The notes under the pieces: generated by a model
What the model was told of the DNA's origin: nothing
The model's input: the letters and a program-made list of their open reading frames with translations, nothing else
The model's database searches: none
Translations under genes and position numbers: made by a program
Shown here: piece after piece, positions 12,001-24,055 of the stretch
How positions within the stretch are numbered: the stretch's first letter is position 1
How the letters are laid out: every line of letters starts with the position of its first letter
Origin: a virus
IMG/VR virus record: IMGVR_UViG_3300020450_000090
Span: 1-24,055 of that record
DNA: 24,055 nucleotides
Direction: 5' to 3' (one strand)

Positions 12001-12677
12001 TCAGTGGTAACTTGAGACTATTCCCATCCAAGTGTGTTGAGGATCCTGATGCTATCCAGTTTAGTAACAAGGCGTTTACTCCAACATTTAGAGTTGAATC
12101 AGAGTTTGGTGATACATTTGTTGGTCGTCTACTTGATGTCGCTGGTATTCAATCAGCAAACCCAACTAACTCACAACCAATCCTTGATGTTAGAAATCTA
12201 GGTGTTAATGGTGCGAATAGCTTTACCATTGTACAAGATGGATCTATCAATGCCTTTGGTTACACTGGATATAAAAACAAGAATGGTGGACATATTAGTA
12301 AATTTGTTAACGCAGATGCCACTCTCTCTTGTAATATAAATTATATTGTAGCGGTAGCTCCTTCTACTGGTGCTCTTATACTTACACTTCCAAATAATCC
12401 TGTGACAGGTGATGTCATTAGAATTACTGAGGTTGCAGGAGCGTTGACTTACAACAACTCACTTGTAATTCGTGCACCGATCATTGGAGGTGAACCAGTA
12501 GCGGTTCAAGGAGATACCTCAGGAACCAAGTTGGGTGGTTTATCTACACCATATGGATCTGGTGAACTGGTTGTTCAAAACAGAAATGCTTCCTTCGGAC
12601 TCATCTATGTTGGACAAACAGATGGTGATAACTTTATCCCTGCTGTCTATCAAGGTTGGTGGTTAACTGAACTATAA
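1..12677 (+). CDS. Giant modular virion structural protein (tail fibre/baseplate type), 5' end missing
   Basis: The frame is open from base 3 to the TAA at 12675-12677, so at least 4224 residues are visible and the true start lies upstream. The first TTG or ATG codons inside the frame fall in the middle of a repeat and are not starts. In order it holds: three 43-residue helical repeats (9-395); Cys-containing helical modules with a KCxRDxxxxVDAxxxDLxxxGN core (about 415-645, 717-1050, 1803-2150, 2874-3230, 4488-4920); beta modules with an AYPRxxxDP or similar core (about 1125-1790, 2195-2860, 3806-4470); a region with the motif IPKYLENARDPINGFV (about 6463-6520); a module with FGPGNYSTGLP and QDGGIVFYTG (about 7870-8040); fibre-like repeats such as RVGINV...LDRTFVVDG (about 9130-10130); and an end reading QGWWLTEL. 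No S74 autoprotease is visible at the C terminus. Related modules are familiar from T4-like cyanophage virion proteins. The exact tail position is inferred, not shown. The stop overlaps the next ATG by one base. Confidence 0.88.
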   Translation, partial: VYHPDFYHAQDSQTNSQSRLADAFRLIRRNSSEIRDKALAQIAVDHPNFYIDGDNQTDEGSRYASAYRLIQKNRDQIVDTALAETTVSHPDYFFVGDQQTDARSRYADGYRLIVQNRVEIVNTAWANMLVSYPNHGQYEAKCKRDLDIFVEAIGLDLFVGGNKYSRKFIQEYFEASGAWISGGLQGEEQQSIEAFNQARDQMKLAVANQLSIQDPTVTPGPAQYGGGGGDIPNNNAGACDDVQSAIVTLTDIVTTQVANGNLNSLPTETSYIAGPGEEKCRRDIGIFVDSLALDLFCKGNVYSYRFAAEFFTDATTPEFSFNSGVYNTNFNKARDMIKKAITNQLYFKDNGTQGAIDRTADNAPGSAYGQVSKDFTPHGATYDATTGEMVLDIANHGLSNGDRVKIADDSLTFTCSMDNNATNHAYPRSTDPASGQYLEITTSTTDSITVNVGASPIVEFTPTTGTTYDPNTGLMVLEIGAHNLTAGTNVKLKEESLVFSCGFGGATGAAAEKAYPRSNGNDPFFNTSIEIQSVTATTITLQVLTTIPSTNTDPHTFVSATTGAVESGGNYAHTFVSAATDAVNFGGNTENELTDAQPFLCSDVQAATDTLTSIVTTILSDGNLSSMPIEVNYGTGRGPGEVKCARDLGYFIDAISVDMYCEGNKHTREYTEQYFTNATTPLPNGLEGEEAESITAYNTAINEMKRAITNQLYYKDLTVTEGGSTFAGSQGDVGTPTNVTYNATTGVLVTTIAGHGLANGDQIKFVENSLTLSCTMDGNTSNKTYPRPSDPSFNTWLTVANKTDDTFEVNVGTSPIVTYTPTTGTTYDPNTGLMVLEIGNHNLTAGTSIKLAPESLTFSCGFGGATGAAAEKSYPRANGNDPFYDTAINIESVTATTITLQVLTTVPSTNTDPHTFVSATAGAVIAGGDYAHTFVSATTNAVKKQNSAITSRTSSSACADVQSAIDTLGTIVTDAIANGNITGGIWNQPVNEGTFIAGEAKCRRDLGIVVDAVAQDLWFGGNEFSISATKEYFQGNQLLANGIDATLEVQPAITAFKRAEDLMQRALNNQYYDRDLNITLDQTGDPPIVGDIECDAHDIVTRNTKFIAKEAYERMKLAYPSYTPSAGNTAQDCLDDIYDVLRDVMWDVKFGGNYKTYSIAKGYITNDFNGKTYPQIIQDVERDEVAKVFQEVKSIAIEIINNKTVTVSAGNDLTQIIDNTIVYDWDADELLPQCGSAVSAVDSLMDIIIQAIGTDAGVGNLDGIQRTTQDGPDPAWNTALNIISKTATSITVNVGATSSQDQDDHTFVAAVAGAVVSGGNYAHTFVNANNNSVSVLNGGQLTPTNATYNAVNGQLILFFGSAHGVTISDQISITPNSLTFSCEMDGNATTKTYPRAGQDPVAGQNIQVAAVTNTSITINVGTSPLVDWNVSNAVYDYASGNLALTIGNHSLAVGTSIRLKEESLIFTCTKDQNKTTHAYPRSAGKYRPSAYQEGNCSDVCATVNALIDILTVSLNDGNLDALPPLSNGEWDCANVRGSIEVLYDILLDAITGGTLAELPVLNKGDFTINNEASKCFRDVTYIVDAIVNDLRLGGNINSIQAGEAYYVGNSLEYIDGEKTETLDAWDYVGQIATAAMRNFDVLGFDCSTTAGSAIIDVNDTRGIIIGMSVVEYDNSRGQTDPANPAFVNGLLQDNATPIYTNIPEGTFVKRIVSNTQIELGVNGSRLTEGNTVNALQTSSTTDLYFVYSNGIWADTLPNTVTVGPENEGPDVIQDTLTSPSYRECSGTADAIETLVGNITTIINSGLGTVVRQEQTVNTALLASRATVFTIDTGGNPSDPHKFETGTPVRLVARPRFDTVTGDYVDVDKRLVRLPNGFEPNRIYYVIAPGRVTQPENYGGTTFFDGNDQTRLMLATSKENAAAGIYIYASETDSIDADVEIDMYQFILDEQYDLHNYRATLSTSIVAGIETDVSHIFDRPSASLSSSEAQKVFIRAIEGGQLPIVGSQFANNSNVAVTDPTDANVGRINPNIEFFVRYQNNKTFTLHQSYANAISGADPIVFASGQAGLIFDVFANKRRVPMRFDPGFTDATTTTGKWYIACKDEVTGQPDNIKKENIFWRISQSDYNDRQRSTDMWYQRLEDDRDKDDRTYKLRMVIPKYLENARDPINGFVIKTRTDDTRKLVPQKILLKPVVGTVYGARFENPVQAGEFIGFTDADFASNNLNSEAQYDPFKKDLTGAAIEYRAFARFSSGVQATIQCGRYVEDILDPSIKYLELTVNDHTIDSKNFPGLRNEILTTVKITAPQGGNFEVSKTENTASAINAVSFSGNSSGLANIHAYFTTGGDHYIIIKNIRGGTLEYSEFANTRFTQGTVFADMLEDQDMGKSLPLKTQIAKKNPQFFYKQNGANVYTITPGDRIQDDAGVEYFVDSVEDAGVIEDTFYIFGYETLQRRISGQQDGIYYLTALRGNISPFPTGAGITNNFKKFKFSQPVSKLYPLNFRNDPLWFKNSGTTQAEKDYYAGLIDPPSTFSAADNYTHGLVYVNDFKNSTTREMVADLTEQPAFIQNTYSGNNEIKAQDGNATSGSEDRLIPIAGDSTVLSDQRYYVELRRPSIARAGNHTFEYLGFGPGNYSTGLPARQEVVLTPDEDFYAQSKKQDGGIVFYTGINSQGDLYIGNRRINAITGEETFIDRATLADDGDEDDTIGGLVTTFDTPVTFNQNITVVGGDGQLVSNFESPVVIAVQDQDLTQSRDSLIIRSNVSSVDPITQLEQDEGLDRTSFSPPTEGDIRLSKNRIRSAIFQFNARGNGQSYMFQTHTVAGIASNITPNQTPLIASGGTRIASEQFITYGGVLPSPGDVIFKGTEVGKNGSIAWILANYFSNIANNSIDNIVFDGSNVVKIEFRDFTSGAALSVGTDIGITSTSQIRFKNFYFDPRLNLTWTVYAAKPGDPFDPTNNYVHFQVIDQIPQSTQAWESIISGTPIGADQPSIEFSNANFKEVGVIGGEALRTETESIGNYKLGINTIARAPHSAYTNAWVDNLTTDPRANLDVVGTAFISGRVTGDFLDHTNFADRDKTDVDNAFLVGGDSDTPNDEAVLRVATTNNGRVGINVDNSQLDRTFVVDGTSRFTDDARFEHDIEVNGDDGSLAEVRTSQTTGQVNLFNDSGFVGGDNTGGLHIGGYAKTIRIGDYNTSSTQWIYVGDKSTGDQFVYIANTANHANIFIGNIDRDAAISKTTIGGAYNRVESLSFVDFEVKRAKFAGDVTFGAFKQLGGDRTNPEQVVTLSTEAGIVDFFSGNTQTIDFAINASEINIAGQGGTTTIRNSLEIDGETTFNSSVKLCGGTSSFSFVGVGGSLGTTPIAHASGVLGPASFNQNVDIVNVLQVVSSDPNFNRIDTAGSATWGDATFQDIKTGAGPEGADLPALTGKQYYLPLLNNPGTYFAEGDYILLDATVDAGTGTRPEIVRVAVGGLAGAESAPYYLTVEREPLGSFAPQIDNHPEEPGNRTPVYKCNIAFDATWIEQAIDALRDATNEENVYLSTFGGTLRVGVDYVIVSREDTNNDGDFNQGEAFKLATPLAIVNKKFEITNGCPNGDTLFSVDSVTGDTIIGNDGVDGENGKLIVNGSFEFKGGCKTSSPQEFTGNIQATLNTINAVSSVEGLEVGDYVELTGNGGTVTLDQNRFPEDSGTVRLTDPQIVSIVGSTVTLNVPFTGSGSATGATLVATKDEKFRITDRVRDIFTIDGCSGDTVIGNPSGTVLANRSQYGTSVASHAVGTTVLTALKDPKVDNGIATTFVNTVTTIGTGDTTLPVDDISNFENGDFIFVGFGSGGNEEIMQINGTPQASGVAPSGNLPVARVGSLSNVGGTATTHTDGESVFRILFRENTVLTNSIAGSGSNSVEIGLENSDVVPFFLDREYWLLIENEIFLVTSSITNDGGTILVKKDYHHGRLTVFDDVKFIGSNFEITGTDNNVPILKLLNNEEHHFEGGALDINATTDISGNLRLFPSKCVEDPDAIQFSNKAFTPTFRVESEFGDTFVGRLLDVAGIQSANPTNSQPILDVRNLGVNGANSFTIVQDGSINAFGYTGYKNKNGGHISKFVNADATLSCNINYIVAVAPSTGALILTLPNNPVTGDVIRITEVAGALTYNNSLVIRAPIIGGEPVAVQGDTSGTKLGGLSTPYGSGELVVQNRNASFGLIYVGQTDGDNFIPAVYQGWWLTEL
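9..395 (+). repeat. Three tandem 129-bp (43-aa) coding repeats
   Basis: Three exact-length units begin at 9, 138 and 267 and end where a fourth HP/YP motif begins at 396. Each encodes H-P-x-F/Y-Y/F, then xxGDxQTxxxSRYADxYRLI or a close variant, then NRxxIVxxA. The reading frame continues off the left edge, so more units may lie upstream. The units have diverged in sequence, but their length is fixed at 43 codons. The pattern suggests an amphipathic helical repeat. Confidence 0.85.
717..2873 (+). repeat. Tandem duplication of a ~1.08-kb module (helical domain plus two beta domains)
   Basis: Copy 1 runs from the Cys codon at 717 to 1802 and copy 2 from the Cys codon at 1803 to 2873, 362 and 357 codons. 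Each contains C-x-DVQ...T-L-T..IVT, then a KCxRD helical domain ending in A-I-T-N-Q-L-Y, then two beta domains ending with HTFVSA pairs. DNA identity is still high in places: the stretch from 1392 (acaggaacaacatatgatcc) recurs at 2469, an offset of 1077 bases. The in-frame offset and third-position differences indicate a fairly old but well-kept duplication. A third helical copy starts at 2874. Confidence 0.8.
3702..4487 (+). repeat. Third, internally deleted copy of the helical/beta module
   Basis: This copy begins with the Cys of CGSAVSAVDSLMDI and keeps the first helix pair. It then passes directly (about 3795-3830) into the second half of a beta domain (DPAWNTALNI...SITVNVG). The KCxRD half and the first half of the beta domain, both present in the copies at 717 and 1803, are absent. 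Two further beta domains follow (about 4020-4280 and 4282-4470). The second of these lacks its HTFVSA tail and runs into the next helical domain (CSDVCATVNALIDI). The reading frame is kept throughout. Confidence 0.65.
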
Positions 12678-13885
12678 TGGCATTCTATAACAGACTAAAA
12701 ACTATGAAGTCCGCTCCAGTAGGCACCATCATGCCTTGGAGTGGACAATCTAGCTTAGGTGCAAATCCTGAGAATATACCACATGGTTGGTTGGTTTGTG
12801 ATGGTAGGACTTTTGCAGCTAATGATTATCCGTTGTTAGCATCCATAATTGGAAATACGTACGGTCCTACTGATGATTCTATTGTTGGTAATTTTCCAGA
12901 CTTTGAGGAGGCAGACACCTTTAGAGTTCCCAACATGAACGGTAGGTCAATGGTTGACCTTGAAAAATCTTATTTACAGGACAGTAAATATCAATTTGGA
13001 CAATCAGATGCAGAAAGTGTCATTGGAGATTTAATTTCTGATGATGGTACTGGTGTTACTCCGCCTACCATATACAGTGCTGATACAGATCTGAAATTTC
13101 AATTAGATCCAATTGATACAATGGCGGGAAAAATTCAAAATATCACATTGAATGATCCTACATGGTCTAAAACATATTATACTATAGGTAGAAAATTGGG
13201 TATTGACCATACACCAGGTCACAAACATGGTGGACAATATACAACAGCATTCCCTGATGGAAAGTATGTTCAAGTATTTGAAGCACCTATCTCAAATCCT
13301 GGTTCTGGTTATGAATCTGCAAACTTAAATGGTATTCAAAACACTGATACTGCAGACCAGTGGCCTAATGGATATGGTAATATGACATATTATGATGAAA
13401 ATACTTTAGTTTTAACGAACGAATCAAAAACTTTTTCACAAGATAGAATTCCACTAGCAGGAGAGGAAAGACTTATTCCTGCTCATGGTGCGTACACTGC
13501 TGAATTTAATGACAAATATAATATTGCACCTAGCGTAACAGCAGGAAATTACGATCACTCTCTGAGGCAGGTTACAGGTGTATTTCCGCCACCAACTACT
13601 ATTTTTGGTAGACCAAACTATTATAATGGAGATGTCTCTCAAACATATCCTACTAACCTCAGTCATATAGGACAAGATTTTACCGATGCAACAGTGGCAT
13701 CACACAACCACTTCAGTTTTGATGTTTCTATGAATATTGGTGGTCTTAGAATTCCACCAAATATTGCTGTGAATAACGTACAATCTTATACTGTTAACGT
13801 TTCTGACATACCTGATGCGTTAAATATTCTTATGGACAATCAAACTCCATCACAAACTGTGGTAATGATTATCAGAGCTTACTAA
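12677..13885 (+). CDS. Tail collar domain protein, short-tail-fibre-like (402 aa)
   Basis: A phage tail collar domain (PF07484 type) is visible at residues 14-95: PVGTIMPWSG, then GWLVCDGRTF, YPLLASIIGNTYG and FRVPNMNGRS. Two HxH motifs follow, H182-K-H184 and H343-N-H345, resembling the axial metal-binding histidines of T4 gp12 and gp37 trimers. The C terminus ends in VVMIIRAY, nearly the same as the 1400-aa protein two genes downstream. The start ATG overlaps the preceding TAA (TAATG), which implies translational coupling. It probably forms a trimeric receptor-binding fibre at the baseplate. It is the shortest of three collar proteins in a row and so may represent the basic form. Identity with gp12 itself is not claimed. 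Confidence 0.82.
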   Translation: MAFYNRLKTMKSAPVGTIMPWSGQSSLGANPENIPHGWLVCDGRTFAANDYPLLASIIGNTYGPTDDSIVGNFPDFEEADTFRVPNMNGRSMVDLEKSYLQDSKYQFGQSDAESVIGDLISDDGTGVTPPTIYSADTDLKFQLDPIDTMAGKIQNITLNDPTWSKTYYTIGRKLGIDHTPGHKHGGQYTTAFPDGKYVQVFEAPISNPGSGYESANLNGIQNTDTADQWPNGYGNMTYYDENTLVLTNESKTFSQDRIPLAGEERLIPAHGAYTAEFNDKYNIAPSVTAGNYDHSLRQVTGVFPPPTTIFGRPNYYNGDVSQTYPTNLSHIGQDFTDATVASHNHFSFDVSMNIGGLRIPPNIAVNNVQSYTVNVSDIPDALNILMDNQTPSQTVVMIIRAY

Positions 13886-13886
13886 A

Positions 13887-15623
13887 ATGCCAGTTTTTTT
13901 AAATCAAGAAAGAACAAAGATCGGAACAACTACAGGAACGCTAATCGCTTTTCCCCAAGAGTTAGAGGTAAATGATCCCGCAGTTGGAAATAGTGCAGAA
14001 CTTCTTCCCGCTGGTTATTTAAGATGTGATGGTGGAATTTATAGTGAAGAGATATATCCTGCATTAGCACAAGTTTTAGGAACAGGAGAGGAATGTTCAT
14101 TCAAACAAGAGGGAGTAACTTTAGGTGATAATCAATTTCAAGTTCCAGATCTAAGATCTAAATTCATTAGAGCTAGTTCTGCGTCTGATCAAGGTGTTAT
14201 TAATGATAACACGGTAGTTTCTGCTACAGGACAAACTATTGAGAGATCTGGTGTTGGTGTTTCAGTCTCATCTAACGTAGGAAGTGTTGCAAATGTTGAT
14301 TTAGTAGGACAATTTAGAATTCCACCTAGAACTGTAAATCTTACAGGTAATGTTGGTTTTACTAGACCTAGAAGTCCAGATGAGGAGGTTGTTACTATCA
14401 ATGCTTTCTTACCACACATGCATTACACTACAACATTTAGATGTAGAACTATTAGGAGACAAGGAAGTGACATATTTGAGATAAATTATTACACAAATGC
14501 CTCTACAATAGGTGTTCATAATTGGTTTGATAATACTGACTCTAATGATGGTACCAATGCAAGACAAGATGCTTGTAGATATTATGGAGAATCTGAAACA
14601 TGGAATACTGGTGCTTATATTCCATCATCTACATTTGCATCATTTACTTATGCTGGTATTTGTAAGGGAAGTTGTGGAGGATTCATCACCAGTTGTTTAG
14701 TTCCTCAAGATAGAGCAATAACAGTTGACACAAGACCAGACGGTCCTTGTACACAAACCTATTCTGTTTTTGGAATTGGGTTAATTACAGTTAATTTGCC
14801 AGGTTGTGGTGGAGCAAGCAGCTGGCCAATACCACCAAATTATATCTCAGGTGCTAGTGGTGTTGGTAGTGATAACATTCCAAACTCAGCAACTGGTTCT
14901 TCTGGCGTAGTGCAATCATTTTCATTATATGATGTTGATCTTGATACTGGTAGTGGATCATATGTAAATAAGGGTTTCGGACAATGGGCGTATTCACAAT
15001 ATAATCCTGGTTGGAGTTCATTAACTGATTTTGGACAATCAGAGGTTGATATGAGTGGTGGAACTGGATCTGATTTTAGAGTTCTGGTAAGATTTGAGGC
15101 GTGGCCAGGTCCTGGCGGTGCTCCAGTCTACACAAGATATAAAATTTCTTCTTTTGTTGATGGTGGTCAAAATTATTCGTCAAGTGATGTACTGACTTTT
15201 CCTGATGTTCAAGGAGTAAACATTAGTGGTGCACCTAGTACAGGTAGTACAGGAATTAGTATGCTTGTCAATACCACAGGTTTTGCAAACTTTGCAGATG
15301 CTGCAGCATATTCTCATGATCAATCTCTACATCACATGTTACCAGTAGATACTCAAGTTGATGCTGCTCAAAACGTTGTTTATCCTCAAGTTTCAAACGT
15401 TGTTGAAACTACACTACCATTTAACTATGATTCTGATCCCACAAGGCACACACATACTATAAATTATACAACTGGACTTACCAATTATCAGTTAAATATA
15501 CCAGAGCTGTTTGTTAGCACTGATGGATTAAGTGCTTCTATTAACATCCAACCAGAAACTGCATCTAAAATTGATAATTTAATTTCTCCTTTCGTCATGG
15601 TTGACTATTTAATCAAGACCTAA
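13887..15623 (+). CDS. Tail collar domain protein with Cys-containing insert (578 aa)
   Basis: The collar domain occupies roughly residues 14-95: TGTLIAFPQE, LPAGYLRCDGG, YPALAQVLG and FQVPDLRSKFIRAS. The first HxH is H177-M-H179 and the second H521-T-H523. About 340 residues lie between them, far more than in the 402-aa neighbour. That insert holds seven cysteines between about residues 186 and 307 (including CKGSCGGFITSC), unusual for a phage fibre, plus Gly/Ser-rich beta-type sequence. The C terminus reads MVDYLIKT, a variant of the hydrophobic ending of its two neighbours. The ATG lies one base after the previous stop. It is probably a receptor-binding or adhesin protein. The ligand is unknown. 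Confidence 0.8.
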   Translation: MPVFLNQERTKIGTTTGTLIAFPQELEVNDPAVGNSAELLPAGYLRCDGGIYSEEIYPALAQVLGTGEECSFKQEGVTLGDNQFQVPDLRSKFIRASSASDQGVINDNTVVSATGQTIERSGVGVSVSSNVGSVANVDLVGQFRIPPRTVNLTGNVGFTRPRSPDEEVVTINAFLPHMHYTTTFRCRTIRRQGSDIFEINYYTNASTIGVHNWFDNTDSNDGTNARQDACRYYGESETWNTGAYIPSSTFASFTYAGICKGSCGGFITSCLVPQDRAITVDTRPDGPCTQTYSVFGIGLITVNLPGCGGASSWPIPPNYISGASGVGSDNIPNSATGSSGVVQSFSLYDVDLDTGSGSYVNKGFGQWAYSQYNPGWSSLTDFGQSEVDMSGGTGSDFRVLVRFEAWPGPGGAPVYTRYKISSFVDGGQNYSSSDVLTFPDVQGVNISGAPSTGSTGISMLVNTTGFANFADAAAYSHDQSLHHMLPVDTQVDAAQNVVYPQVSNVVETTLPFNYDSDPTRHTHTINYTTGLTNYQLNIPELFVSTDGLSASINIQPETASKIDNLISPFVMVDYLIKT

Positions 15624-15624
15624 A

Positions 15625-18600
15625 ATGTCAAGAAACATACGTTCAAATTTTCTTACAGATAAATCAACTTTCGGCAACTCTACGTTGCCAATTGGTTCTA
15701 TCGTACCTATTTTTAAGGCAACTGATGATAAGGTAACAGATAATGGTGTTGTGACTAACCTAGGATCAGTGGTTGCTGGAGCTGGTGGTGGTAGCGGATA
15801 TGTGACAGATTTAGGAACAACTACGGGATATCCCACAGGTCCTGTAACTTTTGATATTCCAGCAACAGCATTTGAAGAGGGAACAGATAATATTGTTATT
15901 AATAATCATCCTTTTATTGAGGGTGATACTTTATCAGTGGTTGCAACTAGTCAAGCTCCAAATAGAGTCAAGTTTGGAGGATCTATTCAAACTATTGGTA
16001 TTACTAACAGTGGTAGTGGTTATACAGCACCACCAATTGTACAAGTAACCGATAATGGTAGCGGTCCTGTTTCTGCTGGTACATTTTCTGCAGTGTTTGA
16101 TTCTAATACAGGACAGGTAACGGGAATAACTGTTGTTGATGGTGGTGTAGGATATCAGTTTCCACAAGTTACATTGATTGGAGGTGGTGGAGTTGGTGCA
16201 GCTGCAACACCAGTACTGGCATCAGGTGGTATTGGTGGTATTGAACTTGATAAAGGATTCTCATTCTTAATTGATGTTGTTGACTCAAACACAATCAAAT
16301 TTTCTAGAAGTAATGGAGATATTGCTGCAGGAAAATATTATAATATTACTAGTGTTGGTTCTAACGGAACAGTAAGTATAGCATCAACCACTGGATTTGG
16401 ATTGACAGTTGGTATAGCAGCAAATTTAGATGGGAGTGTCAATTTTGTTACGATAAAAAATCCTGGTTATGGTTATAAGGATGGTGATGTAGTTTATATC
16501 CTACAACCAGGCAGTAGTGGAACAGCAAGAGTAGAAATTGTTAGCACATCTTCCAATACTGCTAATGATCCAGCAATGCAATATGAGGGTTGGTTATACT
16601 GTGATGGATCTGAATATAATGCAGAGGATTATCCTTTATTATATGAGGTTCTTGAGGATAAGTATGGTGGACTTGGTGGATCATATGATCCAGAAGATTT
16701 TGGATCATCATCTAGTATTACATTTAATGTTCCTGATTATAAAGCTAGAAAATTAGTGGGTGCTGGTGGTGGTGTCAGTGGTGGTGGATCTCCTGTATCT
16801 GGTAATGTTATATCTACAGTTGGTGCAACAGGTGGTAGATGGTTCTTCTCTAAATTGCAACAAGAAGCATTATTTGATGTTGGAAATATTGTAATTAGTG
16901 GATATCAAAATATATCAGAATTTGTTGGTGGAGAACTCACTGGTGAGGTAACATTGCAAGTAGGTCCTATGCAGGAGAAACTATTATCCTCAGTTCCAGA
17001 ACATGATCATGCTATTATGACATCAACAGCACCACAGGCAGGATCATTTGAGGGTTCTGGTTTTGCTGTTGATAATAAACTTGCTGGTTATAAGGATAGC
17101 ACAGGACAGGTTAGTTTCTTCCTACCAAATGGGGGTACGCCATTATTCCATAATCATGGTCTTGTAGATTATATTATCACTGATCCAACTCTCTCTACGT
17201 TCGGTAATGTTGGTGGTATTGGTGAGACAAAAGATGTAACCATCACAGCAACAAATATTATTGGTGAGGTTCTAGGAACTAAATTTAATATTCCATCCCA
17301 TAATTTAACTACGGGATATAAGATAAGAGTTAAATCAAATGATCAATCAACTCCGTTAGTATTTGATGTAGATGGTGTTTCTGTAGCGTTTGCAACAAAC
17401 ACAGAGTGGTATGCAATTGTAATTGATGACGATAATTTTTACCTAGCTAGAACAAAATATCTTGCAAGAAAACAGCAAGCATTGATTGCAACAACTAATG
17501 GTAGTGGTGGACAAGATATTGTAATAGAATTAGCATATAAAATATCAGGAGATATACCTGCAGATCAGGTAACAGTTATTCAACAACCGCCTGATACAAT
17601 ATATGATATCAATGACACATATACCATTGGTGGTAAAACAATTCAGTTGCCAGGCGGATCTTTTTCTACCACTGAAATACAAGTAGAGACAACAACACCT
17701 GGCGCTAGCACAGTTCCAGCTCCAACTGAGACAATTGTAGGTGTCTCTGGGAGTCTCTCTGGAGGTGGTGGTGGAGGTGCTACCTCTGTTGCTAACGGTG
17801 GCATTGGAGGAAACTCATACTACCAATTCACATATAATGGAACGATATATCAAGTCGTTGCAGCAGGTGGTGGAGGTGGTGTATCAGGTGATAGTGGTGG
17901 TGCTGGAGGTAATCCTGGTCAGATTAGAATTAATCACAACAGTAGTACTACAAATATTAGTTCATCAGGAGATTATGTCATAGATGGATTGACCTTTACT
18001 ATTACTGATTATTTTTCTGGTATTGTGGGTGGAGATGGAAGTGTTGGGTCTGGTGGAAGTGGTGCAACCTCAAGTCTCTTTCAAGGTGCTGGTGGTGATG
18101 GTGCTCGTACTCTATTTACTGGAACAAATGATACAGAGCAGGAATTTAATACTCCATCCAGTACTTTCTATCCATATACTATTCCTACTACATGGCCTCT
18201 TGACTCTCTAAGGGCTATCATTAAAGGTGGTGGTGGAGGATCAGGTGGTACTGGTGATGGTGGTTCTGGATGGTGGGCTGGCAGTGGTGGTGCTGGTAAA
18301 GAATTGACCGTTGACCTTAGCACTACTATTAGTTCGTTAAGAGTCTACGTTGGTGGCGGTGGTGGCGCAGGTAGTGGTAGAACTAGAGGAACTGGAGCAA
18401 CCACTGGTTTTGCAACTGGCGGTAATGGTGGTAATGGAACTGGCGGAGGAGGCGGAGGCGGAGGCGGTGGAGCCTCTGCTATTGGTACTTCCACACAAAT
18501 GCTCGCAGGAGCTGGCGGTGGCGGTGGCGGTGGTGCTGCAGGTGATGCCACTCAAGGTTCCGATCAGAATGGTCAGATATCTGGTAATGATGGTTCTCAA

Positions 18601-19827
18601 AATTTAGCAAACCTCTTCTCTGGAAACGGTTCAACTGGTGGTAACTCCGTTTGCTCTGGTGGCGGAGGAGGAGGAGGTGGCGGTGGCGTCGGTTTTGGTG
18701 CTGGCATCGGTGGCGGTGGCGGTGGTGGAAACGGTTCCAACGCACGAAGAGATGGATATGGTGCTACCAGAGGACAAACTTCATATAGAGGGTCTGGTTC
18801 AGGAGGTACAGCATCACTTATCAATGCTACTGACGCAGGAAACGGTGGAATCGTTGGCATAGGAGAACAAATAGGTGGTAGTGATGGATCTGTTAAAATG
18901 ATAGCTACAGAAAACCAAACATTCTACGGAGATGGTGGAGGTGGTGGTGCATCAGGTGGATATGTAAGTTTCTCAGTTGATATTCCTAGTGTAAACGCTG
19001 GAACATTAGTTGTTGGTGATGGTGCTGCAAATGGTGGACAGGAGGGATATGCTAAAATAGGATATGAGGTTTTAGAAACTATTTCTGGTGGTACAGGAAC
19101 TTCAGTTACCTCTGGGTTATTTGATATTGCAAGCGATGGTGTTGATTATGCTCAGTCTGGAACTGGATCGGGATCAAATGGTGGATTTGCATCTATTGAC
19201 TCAGAAAAATATCTTAGATTCTTTGGAAATGAAGCAACTAGATTTGCAAGAACAATTGGAATAGATGCATCTAGTGGTAACTCAAAAGGAGCAGCAATAA
19301 CTTCTGTTAAATTTAGAATTATTCGTGGTAATGGTAGTAATGGTGGTGAAGCACCAAATGAACCATTAGAGCTATTTGCTAGTAATGATAATGCTACTAG
19401 TTTTTCTAAGATAGGTACAATTTCTTCATCCTCAGGTCCTGTAGACTGGACTATTGTTGAGTTACCTTTAGGAATAAATTATCAAATTTCTAATTTAATT
19501 CTGGAAATAAGACAAACAAGAGCTGGTGCTGGAAATCCTGATAATGATAACTATGGTATTGATTATGTTGCGTTTGAACATGAGGAGACAGAACAAACTA
19601 TCACAACATATCCATCTGGTACCACTGATTTAGGAATTGAATTTGTCACAGAACGTATTGAACCACAGGGAGATCCAATCAATAGTGCTGGTCTTGACGT
19701 TAATGAGGGTACATTTACATTATCATCTGCTGTTAAATTAAATGTTTCATCTTCATTACAACCAAACATTGACATTCCTCTCTTAACAAGGTATCATTTA
19801 GTTAAGTATATGATCAGAGCTTATTGA
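15625..19827 (+). CDS. Large adhesin-like tail collar protein with polyglycine and Reelin-like regions (1400 aa)
   Basis: The collar domain is split: LPIGSIVPIF at residues 21-30 and GWLYCDGSEY from residue 322, with FNVPDYKARKLVGAG following. The ~285-residue insert has several GxGY motifs (GSGYTAPP, GVGYQFPQ, YGYKDGD), probably short beta repeats. The two HxH motifs are H460-D-H462 and H509-N-H511. Residues about 545-650 form a beta module (IPSHNLTTGYKIRV). Residues about 706-770 and 865-1147 are glycine-rich with runs of up to ten Gly, preceded by YPYTIPTTWP, as in phage glycine-rich domains. Residues about 1164-1319 resemble a Reelin repeat. The protein ends VKYMIRAY. I infer a trimeric fibre whose glycine-rich part may form a polyglycine sandwich like that of phage S16 gp38. 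That structure is by analogy only. Confidence 0.8.
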   Translation: MSRNIRSNFLTDKSTFGNSTLPIGSIVPIFKATDDKVTDNGVVTNLGSVVAGAGGGSGYVTDLGTTTGYPTGPVTFDIPATAFEEGTDNIVINNHPFIEGDTLSVVATSQAPNRVKFGGSIQTIGITNSGSGYTAPPIVQVTDNGSGPVSAGTFSAVFDSNTGQVTGITVVDGGVGYQFPQVTLIGGGGVGAAATPVLASGGIGGIELDKGFSFLIDVVDSNTIKFSRSNGDIAAGKYYNITSVGSNGTVSIASTTGFGLTVGIAANLDGSVNFVTIKNPGYGYKDGDVVYILQPGSSGTARVEIVSTSSNTANDPAMQYEGWLYCDGSEYNAEDYPLLYEVLEDKYGGLGGSYDPEDFGSSSSITFNVPDYKARKLVGAGGGVSGGGSPVSGNVISTVGATGGRWFFSKLQQEALFDVGNIVISGYQNISEFVGGELTGEVTLQVGPMQEKLLSSVPEHDHAIMTSTAPQAGSFEGSGFAVDNKLAGYKDSTGQVSFFLPNGGTPLFHNHGLVDYIITDPTLSTFGNVGGIGETKDVTITATNIIGEVLGTKFNIPSHNLTTGYKIRVKSNDQSTPLVFDVDGVSVAFATNTEWYAIVIDDDNFYLARTKYLARKQQALIATTNGSGGQDIVIELAYKISGDIPADQVTVIQQPPDTIYDINDTYTIGGKTIQLPGGSFSTTEIQVETTTPGASTVPAPTETIVGVSGSLSGGGGGGATSVANGGIGGNSYYQFTYNGTIYQVVAAGGGGGVSGDSGGAGGNPGQIRINHNSSTTNISSSGDYVIDGLTFTITDYFSGIVGGDGSVGSGGSGATSSLFQGAGGDGARTLFTGTNDTEQEFNTPSSTFYPYTIPTTWPLDSLRAIIKGGGGGSGGTGDGGSGWWAGSGGAGKELTVDLSTTISSLRVYVGGGGGAGSGRTRGTGATTGFATGGNGGNGTGGGGGGGGGGASAIGTSTQMLAGAGGGGGGGAAGDATQGSDQNGQISGNDGSQNLANLFSGNGSTGGNSVCSGGGGGGGGGGVGFGAGIGGGGGGGNGSNARRDGYGATRGQTSYRGSGSGGTASLINATDAGNGGIVGIGEQIGGSDGSVKMIATENQTFYGDGGGGGASGGYVSFSVDIPSVNAGTLVVGDGAANGGQEGYAKIGYEVLETISGGTGTSVTSGLFDIASDGVDYAQSGTGSGSNGGFASIDSEKYLRFFGNEATRFARTIGIDASSGNSKGAAITSVKFRIIRGNGSNGGEAPNEPLELFASNDNATSFSKIGTISSSSGPVDWTIVELPLGINYQISNLILEIRQTRAGAGNPDNDNYGIDYVAFEHEETEQTITTYPSGTTDLGIEFVTERIEPQGDPINSAGLDVNEGTFTLSSAVKLNVSSSLQPNIDIPLLTRYHLVKYMIRAY
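15715..16572 (+). other. Insert that splits the collar domain of the 1400-aa adhesin
   Basis: In the two upstream collar proteins, about 20 residues separate the P-(V/I)-G-(T/S)-I segment from the G-(W/Y)-L-x-C-D-G segment. Here they are about 285 residues apart (31-316). The insert is rich in Gly, Val, Thr and Ser. It carries repeated GSGY/GVGY/GYGY turns spaced tens of residues apart, which suggests consecutive small beta units rather than a disordered linker. Confidence 0.65.
18217..18972 (+). repeat. Low-complexity GGN tract encoding polyglycine
   Basis: Codons here are dominated by GGT, GGA and GGC, giving Gly runs separated by short non-Gly segments. The densest parts are about 18346-18372, 18445-18470, 18514-18536 and 18658-18728. 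GGC and GGA codons crowd in the core, in contrast with the GGT preference around it, so local GC is much higher than in the rest of the window. The tract is in frame with the 1400-aa protein and is not interrupted. Confidence 0.85.
19115..19578 (+). other. Reelin-repeat-like beta-sandwich region in the adhesin
   Basis: Residues about 1164-1319 of the 1400-aa protein show an ordered set of features. These are LRFFGNEATRFARTIGIDAS, then SVKFRIIRGNG, then PLELFASNDNATSFSKIGTI, then VELPLGINYQISNLILEIRQ, then NYGIDYVAFE. This order (aromatic 'L.F', arginine, strand, 'S-D-x-G/A-x-x-F/W', 'LP', 'R-x-R-Q', 'D-x-x-x-I-D-x-V') matches Reelin subrepeats, which are jelly-roll folds. Assignment is by motif order only. 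A different carbohydrate-binding-like sandwich is possible. Confidence 0.45.
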
Positions 19828-20447
19828 TGTTAGAAGCGAGTGAGAGTGGATTAATAGTTGATCCTGATAGATTAGAAGGACAGTTTGAAGATTTTATTGG
19901 TGTGTATAGGAGACTAGTACATCATGAGATGTGTAATGCTATTATATCTAATTTTGAAAAACATTTGAAGATTAATCCAGATTATGTACAATATGGCAGT
20001 AATCAAATGCCAACCAAAAAATTAGCACGTCATGATGTTAGCATGATGTATGATGATATTGATATGGGGTTATCTTCACATTTCTATAAATATCTAAACT
20101 CTGCACTTGAGAACTATAAACAAGAGTATAATCATATCAGAGAAGTTAAACTGGCGTCAATTGGTTTAAAAATACAAAAAACTCCAGTTGGAGGTGGTTA
20201 TCACACTTGGCATTATGAAAACTCTAGCTTTAGAGCAGCAAATAGAGAGATAGCATGGATGGTATACTTAAATGATATGCCAGATGGTGAGGCAGAGACA
20301 GAGTTCTTGTATCAGAAGAAAAGATACAAACCACAGACAGGCACACTATTGTTATGGCCTGCAGGTATGACACATGTTCATCGTGGAAACACAGTCTTTA
20401 CCCATGATAAATATATTGCGACAGGCTGGTTCATTAAAATCCCTTAA
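19827..20447 (+). CDS. 2OG-Fe(II) oxygenase, HxE type (206 aa)
   Basis: This resembles the prolyl-4-hydroxylase-like oxygenase superfamily. Likely iron ligands are H129-x-E131 in YHTWHYEN and H183 or H185 in MTHVHRGN. K195 in DKYIATGW is the candidate 2-oxoglutarate-binding residue. Between them, VYLND and ETEFLYQ followed by PQTGTLLLWPAG match the double-stranded beta-helix core of this family. The first metal pair is His-x-Glu rather than the usual His-x-Asp. The ATG at 19827 overlaps the TGA of the adhesin gene (TGATG), so I prefer it to the TTG at 19824. The enzyme would hydroxylate a protein or small molecule using 2-oxoglutarate and O2. The substrate is unknown. Its coupling to the adhesin gene suggests a tail-related or late role. 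Confidence 0.78.
   Translation: MLEASESGLIVDPDRLEGQFEDFIGVYRRLVHHEMCNAIISNFEKHLKINPDYVQYGSNQMPTKKLARHDVSMMYDDIDMGLSSHFYKYLNSALENYKQEYNHIREVKLASIGLKIQKTPVGGGYHTWHYENSSFRAANREIAWMVYLNDMPDGEAETEFLYQKKRYKPQTGTLLLWPAGMTHVHRGNTVFTHDKYIATGWFIKIP
20406..20413 (+). promoter_or_regulatory. Possible T4-like late promoter -10 element
   Basis: The octamer GATAAATA matches the NATAAATA form of the T4-like late promoter and ends 38 bases before the ATG at 20452. It lies inside the end of the upstream oxygenase gene. In AT-rich DNA such an octamer can occur by chance. Confidence 0.25.
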
Positions 20448-20451
20448 TCAA

Positions 20452-21312
20452 ATGGCAGATATCCGTGTAGTAGTGCAAATAAACGCACTAGAAAGAATGA
20501 TCATCGTTGATGGTAAGACAGAATTTATCAGTGAGGATTATTGGAATGATAACATTCAAAATATTCTATTTCCATTCTGGACGTCTGATAGAGACCGTTT
20601 AATTCACTTGAATTATTTCAGTGATGGATCATATGGTATTGAAAAGAAGAAGTATGTATATGATCGTGCAACTAAAGAAAGAAAGTGGAAGACATATCAA
20701 TGGAGAGAACCAACCAACGAAGAAGTAGGACAAATTGCTGAGACAGTCAAAGAGAAATATTTTGAATATCAAGATGTAGGACAGGAGGAGATTCAAGAGA
20801 AGCTATACAATGAGTATGGTAGATGGCAGAAGGTGTCTTGGGAAGGCGTTAGAATGATTAGAAATTTTCTTCTTGCTGATTCCGATTGGACTCAGATGCC
20901 TGACAATGGAATTGATGCTACATTAAAAGCACAGTGGGTAAAATATAGACAAAAGTTGAGAGATATACCTGCAGATCATGATGGCAAAGATGCAGATGAG
21001 GTTCAGTTCCCTTTCAATCCAGTGATGTATGCAAAGTATCTTACGAAGCGTGCATTAAACAATCAACTTATAAATGAAGGAAAGGAATATCTAGAGACTG
21101 TAGATCAGTTCGGACCTTTTGATCAGAAAACATACAATCAATATGCACAGAGAATAGTATTAACTATCGCATCTAATTACAAAATTAAAAATCCAGATAT
21201 TATTCTTAAGACATCAAAAGATACTGAATATATTGGTGACAGTGCAGAGAAGGCAACCACACAAGAAGAAGTAGACGCATTATTGGAGCAAATCAGACAA
21301 AACAATCTTTAA
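20452..21312 (+). CDS. Tail assembly chaperone-like protein (286 aa)
   Basis: Residues 137-175 contain RNFLLADSDWTQMPD, then WVKYRQKLRDIP. This is the signature of phage tail assembly chaperone proteins (PF16778 type), found next to tail fibre genes in many phages. The N-terminal 130 residues are rich in aromatic and charged residues (NYFSDGSYG, a KxKxYxxRxxTKERKW stretch). The C-terminal end is helical and acidic (TTQEEVDALLEQIRQ). I chose the ATG at 20452 (MADIRVVV), five bases past the preceding stop. The frame extends upstream to 20374 but that part overlaps the oxygenase and reads as non-native. The position right behind three fibre genes fits a helper for fibre folding or attachment. 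This is inferred from motif and context. Confidence 0.65.
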   Translation: MADIRVVVQINALERMIIVDGKTEFISEDYWNDNIQNILFPFWTSDRDRLIHLNYFSDGSYGIEKKKYVYDRATKERKWKTYQWREPTNEEVGQIAETVKEKYFEYQDVGQEEIQEKLYNEYGRWQKVSWEGVRMIRNFLLADSDWTQMPDNGIDATLKAQWVKYRQKLRDIPADHDGKDADEVQFPFNPVMYAKYLTKRALNNQLINEGKEYLETVDQFGPFDQKTYNQYAQRIVLTIASNYKIKNPDIILKTSKDTEYIGDSAEKATTQEEVDALLEQIRQNNL

Positions 21313-21319
21313 TTAAATT

Positions 21320-21655
21320 ATGCACAAAATGGAATTGAATATTCTCATCCTCACATTGATGACAGGGGAGGAGTTGATAGCAAATGTGAAAGATCATACT
21401 GAGAAAATAGATGGTGTTGAGCAAAAAGTATGCTATAGTATAACATACCCATTTAGATTACAGACATCAGGACCTATAGATGGCAAGACGGCTCAATTAA
21501 CTCTCGTGCCATGGAAATTTTGGTCATGTGACACATCATTCTTACTTGGGTATGATAAGATATTGAACATGTGTACACCTCTAAAAGATGTCACTGAACA
21601 ATATACACTAGCTGTAGATAACTTTATTAAAGCTCTGGCGGAGACACAACAATGA
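21320..21655 (+). CDS. Small 'TGEE' protein, possibly Sm/Hfq-like fold (111 aa)
   Basis: An N-terminal strand LNILILTLMTGEELIANV is followed by a strand-rich middle (YPFRLQ, LTLVPWKFWSCD) and a helical end (VDNFIKALAETQ). The pattern 'hydrophobic strand - TGEE(L/I)IA - strand ... P-W' recurs in small phage proteins of T4-like marine viruses that are sometimes compared with Sm-like beta barrels. I do not claim RNA binding. The ATG at 21320 is seven bases past the preceding stop. An in-frame ATG at 21329 is also possible, and neither has a clear ribosome binding site. The stop overlaps the next ATG (ATGA). Confidence 0.6.
   Translation: MHKMELNILILTLMTGEELIANVKDHTEKIDGVEQKVCYSITYPFRLQTSGPIDGKTAQLTLVPWKFWSCDTSFLLGYDKILNMCTPLKDVTEQYTLAVDNFIKALAETQQ
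21637..21643 (+). promoter_or_regulatory. Shine-Dalgarno-like site for the PKHD hydroxylase gene
   Basis: GGCGGAG lies eight bases before the ATG at 21652, inside the end of the preceding gene. It is one of the few recognisable ribosome binding sites in the window and supports the overlapping ATGA start. Confidence 0.45.
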
Positions 21656-22302
21656 TATATGAGTATGATTTCTTTGACTCTAATCAATTAAGACAAATAC
21701 TGAGTATATTTGATGCTGGTAAATTTGTTGATGGTGCTCGCACAGGTCCTAAAGAGAAGGATGTAAAGGATAACACACAGCAAGATGACATTGAATTGAA
21801 TAAGATGACAAATCAATGCGTTCATAAAGTGTTGAGACAATCAGAGATATCTGATTTACATCCACTTAACAAATGTAGTCCATGTTATATGTTAAAATAT
21901 GAAGTAGGACAACATTACAATGATCATATAGACTACTGGGACATGTGGGGTAACCGAACGGATTACACTGCAGTCGTTATGTTAAATGATGATTATGAGG
22001 GTGGTGAACATTTCATAAAGATAGGGACAGAGACTATTGAAAGAAAGCTAGAAGCAGGTAGAATGTTGATGTATCAATCTGATTATGTTCATGGTGTCAG
22101 ACCAGTGACCTCTGGTGTTAGAAAATGTCTTACATTCTGGATGGAAAGTTCTATTCCAGATCCTACCATGAGATACTACATCACAGAGTTGAACAAACTA
22201 CATTGTAGGATACATGAACAAGATGTGGATAGGGAAACTTTATTATTGCTTGACCACGTTCGTTGTGGAATTATCAAACGTTGTGCACAAATGAGAAATT
22301 AG
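21652..22302 (+). CDS. PKHD-type hydroxylase, 2OG-Fe(II) oxygenase (216 aa)
   Basis: Canonical residues are present: H92-x-D94 in YNDHIDYW, the LNDDYEGGEHF strand, distal H147 in YVHGVRPVTSGVRK and R157 for 2-oxoglutarate. The stretch VHGVRPVTSGVRK...FWMESSI is very like PKHD-type hydroxylases (YbiX/PiuC family), and the ~216-residue length is close to that family. The N terminus (residues 1-60) has an acidic/lysine-rich loop (TGPKEKDVKDN). The start overlaps the previous stop (ATGA) and has a GGCGGAG site upstream. It should be an active dioxygenase as far as the residues show. The physiological substrate of this family is not established and none can be read here. Confidence 0.85.
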   Translation: MIYEYDFFDSNQLRQILSIFDAGKFVDGARTGPKEKDVKDNTQQDDIELNKMTNQCVHKVLRQSEISDLHPLNKCSPCYMLKYEVGQHYNDHIDYWDMWGNRTDYTAVVMLNDDYEGGEHFIKIGTETIERKLEAGRMLMYQSDYVHGVRPVTSGVRKCLTFWMESSIPDPTMRYYITELNKLHCRIHEQDVDRETLLLLDHVRCGIIKRCAQMRN

Positions 22303-22303
22303 T

Positions 22304-22837
22304 ATGGTTTTATTAACTGATATTATGTCGTGGGATACTATTCTCACAAGAGAGGAGATGGAGGAGATTGAAAAGATTTGCAGTCGTCCTAGATGGCAGT
22401 GGGGTGCCATAAGTGATCACACAGCACCACACAAGAAGTTTTGGAAGATGGACGTGAAAGGACATGCCATTTTTGATACTACCATACCTGAGAAAATAGA
22501 GATACTTGTACCATTTAAACATGAGATACTTGATTATTATGTCAATGGACATACAAGGGGATTAGATGGTTTCATGCATAAGGATGATGCAGACTATACA
22601 TTTTTAATATTCTGCAATCCTGTATGGGATATTATGTGGGGTGGTAAAACTATGTTTGTACAGGATGATGGTAGATTTGACTGTATATTTCCTAAGCCTG
22701 GCTCAGCAATATGTTTCCCATCAGGTATATTACACTGTGCAGAGGACGTGAGCAGGGAATTCTATGGTATTAGAGTTAGTGCTGCTTATAAATTAAAGAA
22801 AGTAGAGAATACAGATGCAGAACCTACAGACGTTTAG
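22304..22837 (+). CDS. 2OG-Fe(II) oxygenase, HxD type (177 aa)
   Basis: The expected residues are H92-x-D94 (FMHKDDADYTF), the strand GGKTMFV, PKPGSAICFPSGILHCAED with distal H144, and R157 in EFYGIRVSAAYKL. The N-terminal 75 residues resemble neither neighbouring oxygenase. The protein is compact, essentially just the beta-helix domain. The ATG at 22304 is one base past the preceding stop. An in-frame ATG at 22325 (MSWDTILT) is an alternative start. The last 23 bases overlap the next gene. The substrate is unknown. Confidence 0.8.
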   Translation: MVLLTDIMSWDTILTREEMEEIEKICSRPRWQWGAISDHTAPHKKFWKMDVKGHAIFDTTIPEKIEILVPFKHEILDYYVNGHTRGLDGFMHKDDADYTFLIFCNPVWDIMWGGKTMFVQDDGRFDCIFPKPGSAICFPSGILHCAEDVSREFYGIRVSAAYKLKKVENTDAEPTDV

Positions 22838-23192
22838 CAGTGCTAGAGACTGGGATCAGATTGAAGCATACGCTTCTACTATTTCTGGTGCTCTAGTGTA
22901 TTGGGAGAACCCAAGATTGGAGTTGGCAAATGCTGACGCTAAGAAGATAGTTCTTGATTACTATAAGATTGATGAGGAGATACCTACAGATCTAGCTATC
23001 ACGTTAGATGGTAATTATTATGGATATATTGAGTTTAGAGATTCTACCGTAGCATTTGATTTTGTCACTGACTATTTTCCTCGTAAGGATGAGGTAAGTG
23101 ACGATACATACTGGTATCATTGCTATGTTGTTAGACCAGATGGTGTCATAGAATATGATAACGATGCATTACGAAAGGGTAACAACGTGTGA
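22815..23192 (+). CDS. Acidic protein of unknown function (125 aa)
   Basis: I do not recognise this protein. It has an N-terminal helical region (residues 8-52, ARDWDQIEAYAS), a beta-rich middle (ITLDGNYYGYIEFRDSTVAF) and a tail with YHCYVVRPDGVIEYD. It is rich in Asp, Glu and Tyr. It overlaps the preceding oxygenase by 23 bases and the following gene by four (GTGA), so it is translated within the oxygenase cluster. A TATAAATT octamer lies about 20 bases before its ATG but is only a weak match to a late promoter. The ending VVRPDGVIEYD suggests a small compact domain. Confidence 0.6.
   Translation: MQNLQTFSSARDWDQIEAYASTISGALVYWENPRLELANADAKKIVLDYYKIDEEIPTDLAITLDGNYYGYIEFRDSTVAFDFVTDYFPRKDEVSDDTYWYHCYVVRPDGVIEYDNDALRKGNNV
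23174..23180 (+). promoter_or_regulatory. Shine-Dalgarno-like site supporting a GTG start
   Basis: AAAGGGT lies eight bases before the GTG at 23189. It supports a non-ATG start overlapping the previous stop (GTGA) over the internal ATG at 23210. Confidence 0.4.
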
Positions 23193-23713
23193 AGAATGAC
23201 GTAGCATTTATGATACCAGTCTTTACACATACTGTAGAGAATTGGGTTGATTACAAAGATGAGATCCTTAACATGATTGACCTTGAGGATGGTGATGGAC
23301 ATCAAACTGATTATATTAAATATCATCAACAGGATAAACTACCACCATATGCTGACAGGTTGTTTGAGATATTAAAACCATCATTGATAGAATTTGATGA
23401 TGTATATCCACATGCATTTGATATTCGTAATGTGTGGTGTCAGAAATATGGAAGTGGAAGTTATCATCAACTACACAATCATGGAGCATTAGGTTACTCA
23501 GCAATATTATATGCTAAGTTGGAGGACGATCACAATCCTACATCATTCTTTGCACCATTTCTTGACTTTATAGAGGGTAATGTGATAGAATATGTACCTG
23601 AGGTCAGTGAAGGAGATATTATTTTCTTTCCGTCAAGCTTGACACATCAGTGTAAAGTGGTACAATCTGAATCAGAACGTATTATTTTTTCTTTCAATAT
23701 AAGAAATGCTTGA
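23189..23713 (+). CDS. 2OG-Fe(II) oxygenase of TIGR02466/PF13759 type (174 aa)
   Basis: The order of motifs fits the TIGR02466 group: VWCQKYGSGSYHQLHNHG (histidines 93, 96 and 98), a strand SAILYAKL, SFFAPF, then EGDIIFFPSSLTHQCKV with distal H153, and R164 in SERIIFSFNIR. The proximal motif is His-x-His rather than His-x-Asp, as I recall for this family, so metal binding may differ from the two HxD enzymes upstream. The start is a GTG overlapping the TGA of the preceding gene. The 3' end overlaps the ATG of the next gene by eight bases. Function in phages is unknown. It is the fourth oxygenase in this run. Confidence 0.72.
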   Translation: MKNDVAFMIPVFTHTVENWVDYKDEILNMIDLEDGDGHQTDYIKYHQQDKLPPYADRLFEILKPSLIEFDDVYPHAFDIRNVWCQKYGSGSYHQLHNHGALGYSAILYAKLEDDHNPTSFFAPFLDFIEGNVIEYVPEVSEGDIIFFPSSLTHQCKVVQSESERIIFSFNIRNA

Positions 23714-24055
23714 ATTTCCCTATGAACTCCCCTATGAAAACCTTGACTTTACAGATGAAGACACTAACAAACTATATCGTATCGGAAGAGGCGAGCAAGG
23801 GGTTCTATTGGTTCGCCCTTATACAAACCTTATTTGTGCTCATTGGAGATTCAAGACTCCCGAAATAGCAACAAAATCTGCTAATAAAATATACTCCATG
23901 TTCCTAGATTATATGGCACATGGAGATTTTGTTGGTATGGATATGTCTCGTAAATTTTTAGAGATGGGATTTACTAGATCAAGACGCTATGCCAATCATC
24001 ATACAGGCAAGAAATATGATGCCGAAGGAAATGTAAGACCCCAAGAGAAAGATCA
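23706..24055 (+). CDS. DUF4385 family protein, 3' end cut by the window
   Basis: From the ATG at 23706 the frame is open to the right edge (116 codons). The sequence contains YRIGRGEQGVLLVRPYTN, HWRFKTPEIATKSANKIY, then DFVGMDMSRKFLEMGFTRSR and RYANHHTGKKYD, the hallmark of DUF4385. That family is widespread in T4-like cyanophages and also found in some bacteria. The function is unknown. The conserved Arg/Lys/His-rich part suggests contact with nucleic acid or another polyanion, but this is only a guess. The visible length is most of the usual domain, and I judge the gene intact as far as it goes. It overlaps the end of the oxygenase gene by eight bases. Confidence 0.82.
   Translation, partial: MLEFPYELPYENLDFTDEDTNKLYRIGRGEQGVLLVRPYTNLICAHWRFKTPEIATKSANKIYSMFLDYMAHGDFVGMDMSRKFLEMGFTRSRRYANHHTGKKYDAEGNVRPQEKD

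Follow-up and report, generated by a model that had tools for sequence, protein, structure and literature searches.

Four 2-oxoglutarate oxygenase genes around a tail-fibre chaperone gene in a marine cyanomyovirus: a possible fibre-modification cassette

Few unexplained genes of marine T4-like phages are as numerous as those for 2-oxoglutarate (2OG)-Fe(II) oxygenases, which are usually classed as host-metabolism genes. Why should four of them lie directly behind the genes for tail fibres? The question is raised by a 24,055-nucleotide (nt) stretch of a cyanomyovirus record, IMG/VR record IMGVR_UViG_3300020450_000090 (the window, to which all window coordinates refer), in which every gene is encoded on the plus strand. 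Four intact oxygenase genes, OX1 to OX4, are found within positions 19827 to 23713; three genes for Collar-domain fibres precede them, and the gene for a tail assembly chaperone, CHAP, lies among them. An earlier note on this DNA had proposed a cassette that hydroxylates virion proteins or a host receptor. The linkage, the phylogeny and a collagen-associated relative described below make modification of virion fibres the leading reading. The use of abundant viral prolyl 4-hydroxylase genes in the Baltic has been called cryptic (PMC9301287), and phage oxygenases have been reported to resemble human EGLN3 structurally (PMC12774648). In the open-access literature we found no description of a fibre-chaperone-oxygenase linkage, and as far as that literature shows, the fibre-modification reading is apparently not in print.

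Profile matches and conserved residues confirmed all four genes as real open reading frames (ORFs) of the HxE (OX1), PKHD-like (OX2), compact HxD (OX3) and HxH (OX4) types. The gathering cut-off of Pfam family PF13640 (2OG-FeII_Oxy_3; 27 bits) was passed by OX1 (19827..20447, 206 amino acids, HxE...H...K; 40.7 bits, E = 4.8e-10) and by OX2 (21652..22302, PKHD/PiuC-like, HxD...H...R; 51.5 bits, E = 2.1e-13), which belong to different clades of the same PHROG, phrog_61. By sequence, OX2 also matches a PKHD hydroxylase in the PDB (9.9e-13), and it scores 114.2 bits (6e-33; PRK05467.1-3) against the PiuC/YbiX model PRK05467, under the curated cut-off of 143 bits for the nearest of these models. 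The compact OX3 (22304..22837, HxD...H...R) matches phrog_274 (2.4e-21) and, at 26.8 bits (1.1e-5), sits 0.2 bits under the PF13640 cut-off of 27.0; its predicted fold is nonetheless of that type. OX4 (23189..23713), in which H-x-H replaces H-x-D, passes the cut-off of PF13759 (2OG-FeII_Oxy_5; 45.5 bits against 27 bits, 1e-11) and matches phrog_81 (4.9e-34). To TIGR02466, the family named earlier, it has only a match of 37.9 bits, under the curated 62.5 bits.

We then assessed residue conservation over 42 to 50 homologues per enzyme. The H-x-E...H metal ligands and the lysine of OX1 are invariant, as are H-x-D...H and the arginine of OX2 (50/50 homologues) and H-x-D...H of OX3, which has two candidate arginines, both invariant. 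In OX4, the acidic third ligand (HxD/E) is absent: H96, H98 and H153 form H-x-H...H in all 42 sequences, and the arginine is present in 41 of the 42. Across 174 phrog_61-type sequences, both histidines are present in every case and the position of the third ligand invariably holds D or E, the choice being fixed within each of the OX1, OX2 and P-SSM2-type clades (the last is taken up below). OX1 to OX3 carry the Fe(II)/2OG facial triad, HxD/E...H, together with a K/R for 2OG, and because these metal ligands and 2OG-binding residues are invariant, the three look, from their sequences, like working enzymes; the chemistry of OX4, with its non-standard third ligand, is less certain. As the earlier note had judged, the genes are not decaying copies, a possibility ruled out by the invariant catalytic residues.

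The best PDB match of an AlphaFold2 model of OX1 (pLDDT 77) is a Chlorella-virus collagen prolyl hydroxylase (5c5t; Foldseek E = 6.6e-9, TM about 0.6, active-site loops of low confidence), followed by bacterial and human P4H and PHD2, so the predicted fold is prolyl-hydroxylase-like. The corresponding model of OX3 (pLDDT 72) matches Pseudomonas P4H, PolD, PKHD and PHD2. Homologues of OX3 are named "DNA endonuclease V" in RefSeq (S-RSM4 SRSM4_206, S-PM2p230 and Syn1_042) and in PHROG 274. There is no such Pfam match, and since the fold matches are to prolyl hydroxylases and PKHD proteins, we rejected this identity; the label looks like a propagated misannotation.

How tightly are these genes tied to their neighbours? 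The series runs giant ORF, TF1, TF2, ADH, OX1, CHAP, TGEE, OX2, OX3, H125, OX4 and a DUF4385 gene. The cassette is translationally coupled to the fibre genes: the ADH/OX1 junction is TGATG, the TGEE/OX2 junction ATGA and the H125/OX4 junction GTGTGA; OX2 and OX3 are 1 nt apart, and OX3 and H125 overlap by 23 nt. The overlaps and near-zero gaps described earlier were thus borne out, except that CHAP does not overlap OX1. CHAP (20452..21312; phrog_4697, 1.9e-54), which has a C-terminal Phage_tail_APC domain (PF16778, 54.3 bits against a cut-off of 26.6 bits, 1.2e-14), starts at the ATG at 20452, 4 nt past OX1. This methionine (Met27 of the listed ORF) is invariant in 55 homologues, and the start at 20374 given by a mechanical ORF list is therefore wrong. 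The late promoter ATAAATA has no match between the genes; its two matches both lie inside OX1, a number below chance. The two small genes within the series are TGEE (21320..21655, 111 amino acids), with a weak match to DUF6561/phrog_431, and H125 (22815..23192, 125 amino acids), which is conserved within the cassette and has no family match in Pfam and PHROG profile searches.

The arrangement is not peculiar to the window. We retrieved related viral contigs by CHAP and by OX2 and counted only those with enough flanking sequence. OX1 was present in 55/55, TGEE in 62/62, OX2 in 51/51, OX3 in 45/45 and OX4 in 33/33, counts that are not independent because some of the contigs are near-identical, and the gene order was unchanged in every contig with room. 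The four enzymes hold their order and their catalytic residues down to about 45 to 65% identity. Two small genes are inserted between TGEE and OX2 in 11 related contigs (L004, L006, L012, L016, L026, L028, L030, L032, L038, L040 and L057). They encode a 95-amino-acid membrane-like protein and a protein of about 104 amino acids with a likely signal peptide (beginning NHLPVMYVQVPQWADDWAVCAVDIPD), neither of which belongs to a Pfam family; this optional insert does not hold a fifth oxygenase.

Oxygenases scattered at random with respect to fibre genes were among the results that the earlier note had named as a refutation. We mapped gp23, Collar domains and the chaperone in 23 complete cyanophage records, in which three PHROG models served to locate the oxygenases; 11 of the 23 carry the full chaperone. 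In these 11 genomes, 30 of 97 oxygenases lie no more than 3 kb from the chaperone, compared with 3.0 expected if they were placed uniformly (the simulated p value reached its floor, 5e-5), a figure that is inflated by shared ancestry among the genomes, whose counts are not independent. Most records were picked because their chaperone is similar or because they belong to the set published in 2010, and a few by OX2, which leaves a small selection bias. At least one oxygenase lies within this distance in 10 of the 11 records, the exception being S-WAM2. In a tree of 93 phrog_61-type proteins, all enzymes encoded downstream of the chaperone form one clade (98% SH-aLRT), and all those encoded upstream form one group together with two outsiders; in a larger tree, upstream and downstream enzymes each form a single group, that of the upstream enzymes being weakly supported (80%). 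The clades thus follow the side of the chaperone on which the genes lie, and position is therefore inherited with lineage. Together with the proximity count, these position-specific clades rule out random scatter.

A second lineage links an oxygenase to a fibre of a more telling kind. In P-SSM2 (PSSM2_28 to _31, 13116-16271), a collagen-like fibre gene encoding 35 G-X-Y triplets (PF01391, 1.6e-19), a hypothetical gene, an APC gene (PF16778, 8e-12) and a PF13640 oxygenase gene stand in a row. The P-SSM2 copy of this oxygenase carries the RefSeq product name "ferrochelatase". Among relatives of the oxygenase retrieved from viral contigs (loci L211-L288), a same-strand collagen ORF ends no more than 3.5 kb upstream in 40 of the 62 loci with more than 2.5 kb of upstream sequence, and in 23/36 after dereplication, whereas a collagen-like ORF occurs in 1/93 window-type and 1/11 distant-chaperone control loci. 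Of the P-SSM2-type loci, 39/78 also have an APC gene, which as a rule immediately precedes the oxygenase. A scan for genes closely homologous to the APC gene of P-SSM2 itself gave one locus only. Likewise, among 33 whole records, Pfam Collagen scores above its cut-off in 6 of the 11 with a P-SSM2-type oxygenase and in none of the 22 without one. The larger tree places the P-SSM2-type clade apart from both OX1 and OX2, so that for the window enzymes the collagen linkage is an analogy, not orthology. As an analogy, it is the best clue that enzymes of this kind may hydroxylate fibres, and the P-SSM2-clade enzyme is a candidate for a phage-encoded prolyl hydroxylase of collagen. According to a 2012 study of phage collagens, bacteria and viruses lack the needed prolyl hydroxylases (PMC3368898); the P-SSM2 clade suggests otherwise.

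Taken together, the non-random linkage to the chaperone, the position-specific lineages and the independent clade beside collagen-like fibres put fibre modification first. That the oxygenases modify the fibres encoded beside them is the most economical explanation, which the conserved layout suggests rather than proves, and we believe it about as much as we doubt it. The locus would then be a late operon that serves fibre maturation in an S-RSM4-like cyanomyovirus, and a single transcript would presumably encode the fibres, the APC-type chaperone and all four oxygenases. The chaperone would aid fibre folding and trimerization, and the oxygenases, of which OX1 and OX2 are most likely prolyl-hydroxylase-type protein hydroxylases, would use Fe(II), O2 and 2OG to hydroxylate residues of the fibres or of other tail polypeptides, changing fibre stability or receptor contact. 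The action on fibres, the residues modified and the benefit are what we infer. A broader version, that marine cyanophages possess a dedicated fibre-hydroxylation system in which an APC chaperone and position-specific oxygenases serve glycine-rich or collagen-like tail fibres, having evolved in at least two fibre types and grown to four different enzymes in the S-RSM4 group, is one that we hold more tentatively. If fibre hydroxylation were borne out, an enzymatic modification of fibres would be added to phage biology and a large gene class would leave the "auxiliary metabolic" list. Stable linkage to fibres and chaperone, and that of one clade to collagen-like fibres, supplies a specific candidate protein substrate that can be tested in cultured isolates.

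Several observations weigh against fibre modification, the strongest being S-WAM2 and the missing target motif. A similar glycine-rich Collar fibre occurs in S-WAM2 together with the chaperone, which has no oxygenase within 3 kb, and a glycine-rich domain is thus unsupported as a discriminating target. The ADH fibre of the window has a glycine-rich region with nine poly-Gly runs and no obvious target motif. As the earlier note had observed, the window fibres are not collagen-like: a composition check found no G-X-Y array in them, and the S-RSM4 record likewise has no collagen array, so the collagen analogy names no target site. Nor do collagen fibres generally need an oxygenase, since only 6 of 69 collagen-bearing viral contigs from all habitats carry one. 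Pairing of APC genes with oxygenases is not general beyond cyanophages either, 0 of 11 more distant APC loci of other phages having a detectable oxygenase. A prolyl-hydroxylase-like fold is expected of the whole PF13640 family, and both models are of moderate quality with poor active-site loops. Finally, 10 of the 12 records without a full chaperone have an oxygenase no more than 5 kb downstream of gp23, compared with 0 of the 11 chaperone-bearing records. In Syn33 (NC_015285 114027-116273) and P-SSM4 (NC_006884 120256-123357), cyanophages without Collar fibres, related oxygenases occupy the interval from gp23 to uvsW, immediately ahead of gp3. The tie to late genes is kept there, but such linkage need not mean fibres, and adjacency to fibres is not universal.

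Could the enzymes serve host metabolism instead? Sullivan et al. (2010) proposed that phage oxygenases control 2OG and nitrogen signalling or act in DNA repair (PMC3037559), and the nitrogen/2OG suggestion was repeated for S-SCSM1, which has 24 such genes (PMC9602691). As auxiliary metabolic genes, OX1 to OX4 would have small molecules of the host as substrates or would lower 2OG and so tune host nitrogen signalling, and their place in a late operon would be incidental. The number of oxygenases per genome in our records (5 to 23), mostly distant from fibres, speaks for this explanation. However, it predicts neither position-specific clades around a tail-fibre chaperone, nor four different enzymes strictly kept in one order, nor the collagen linkage of another clade, and coupling to virion genes would imply late expression, which is awkward for metabolic reprogramming. 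We regard it as unlikely.

A slightly less likely explanation keeps the substrate in the tail and moves it off the fibres, to the chaperone, gp3 or another tail or baseplate component. The oxygenases directly before gp3 in Syn33 and P-SSM4 are as it would have them, as is the gp23-adjacent position that is empty in all full-chaperone records and filled in most others, but the constant neighbour is the fibre chaperone in the window's group and a collagen-like fibre in the P-SSM2 group.

Modification of the host surface is more doubtful still. Here, the altered target would be lipopolysaccharide, a receptor protein or some secreted product, and the gain might be, for instance, that superinfection is blocked or that progeny are kept from adsorbing to debris. 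In S-SSM7 (103587-112379), a tail fibre gene is followed by a cluster in which oxygenases occur with carbamoyltransferases, a tryptophan halogenase, heptose enzymes and a cysteine dioxygenase. Oxygenases in such a sugar/carbamoyltransferase setting favour a surface role, a similar cyanophage cluster has been interpreted as a capsule or metabolite pathway (PMC7824862), and the membrane-like and signal-peptide-like proteins between TGEE and OX2 in some contigs would also fit. The window cassette, however, lacks genes for sugar, transport or membrane functions and is constantly accompanied by fibres and chaperone; of the two targets in the earlier proposal, the host receptor is the one that gained no specific support. 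Last, hitchhiking in a hot spot that gathers unrelated cargo behind fibre genes, with position functionally meaningless, accords with a downstream region that varies between phages and with cargo that differs by group, yet we consider it highly improbable given four enzymes that keep order and catalytic residues over such divergence, orthologous clades that track position and a fibre-chaperone-oxygenase order repeated in a second lineage.

The fibre genes and the remaining neighbour complete the map. A partial giant fibre-related protein (3..12677) occupies the same place as the 4,482-amino-acid "short tail fiber protein" of S-RSM4, with matching C-terminal residues. Around window positions 3285-3440, within the giant ORF, there is a weak Pfam Phycobilisome score (whole-protein E = 9e-8, no single stretch passing) that may be a repeat artefact. 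The giant gene is followed by TF1 (12677..13885), a Collar-domain short tail fibre (PF07484, 1.1e-15; phrog_4591, 2.7e-86), TF2 (13887..15623), a Collar-domain virion structural protein (PF07484, 3.5e-8; phrog_31602, 8e-152), and ADH (15625..19827), the 1,400-amino-acid Collar-domain fibre (PF07484, 3.1e-9; phrog_30655, E = 0). TF1, TF2 and ADH share with homologues in S-RSM4, S-PM2, S-WAM2 and ACG-2014h a C-terminal motif, hydrophobic-Y-hydrophobic-I-K/R-(A)-Y/F (for example LVKYMIRAY and KIKYIIKVY), which is possibly a chaperone or capping site. Downstream of OX4 lies a DUF4385 gene (23706..24053; PF14328, 1.3e-46) cut by the window end.

How does the cassette compare with known systems? OX2 adjoins fibres, whereas bacterial PiuC adjoins siderophore receptors. 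OX2 nevertheless resembles the PiuC/YbiX PKHD hydroxylases (PDB 9ghl and 3dkq) in motif and by sequence, with E values of about 1e-12 to 1e-10, while falling under the curated NCBIfam cut-offs. OX1 has HxE, where the Chlorella virus PBCV-1 enzyme vCPH presumably has the canonical HxD. The two also differ in that they are 18 to 19% identical and that vCPH comes from a eukaryotic giant virus and has no tie to a tail-fibre chaperone; it is nonetheless a virus-encoded protein hydroxylase and the closest fold to the OX1 model (PDB 5c5t and 5c5u). The P-SSM2 cluster and its relatives share with the window the series of fibre, APC chaperone and PF13640 oxygenase but have a collagen-like fibre, a small APC gene and a single oxygenase of a separate clade. 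Closer are the S-PM2, Syn1, S-RIM32 and S-CAM loci, which have the order OX1-chaperone-OX2-OX3 with orthologous OX1 and OX2, although their last fibre is a different one, their OX4-like gene is more distant or absent and, in S-PM2 and Syn1, TGEE is missing between chaperone and OX2. Closest is the isolate S-RSM4 (NC_013085 151555-162121), a separate phage with the same gene order from the fibres to OX4 and with OX2 and CHAP about 62 to 65% identical; RefSeq proposes no function for the region. The cassette itself is thus not new but a further example of an arrangement known from the S-RSM4 sequence.

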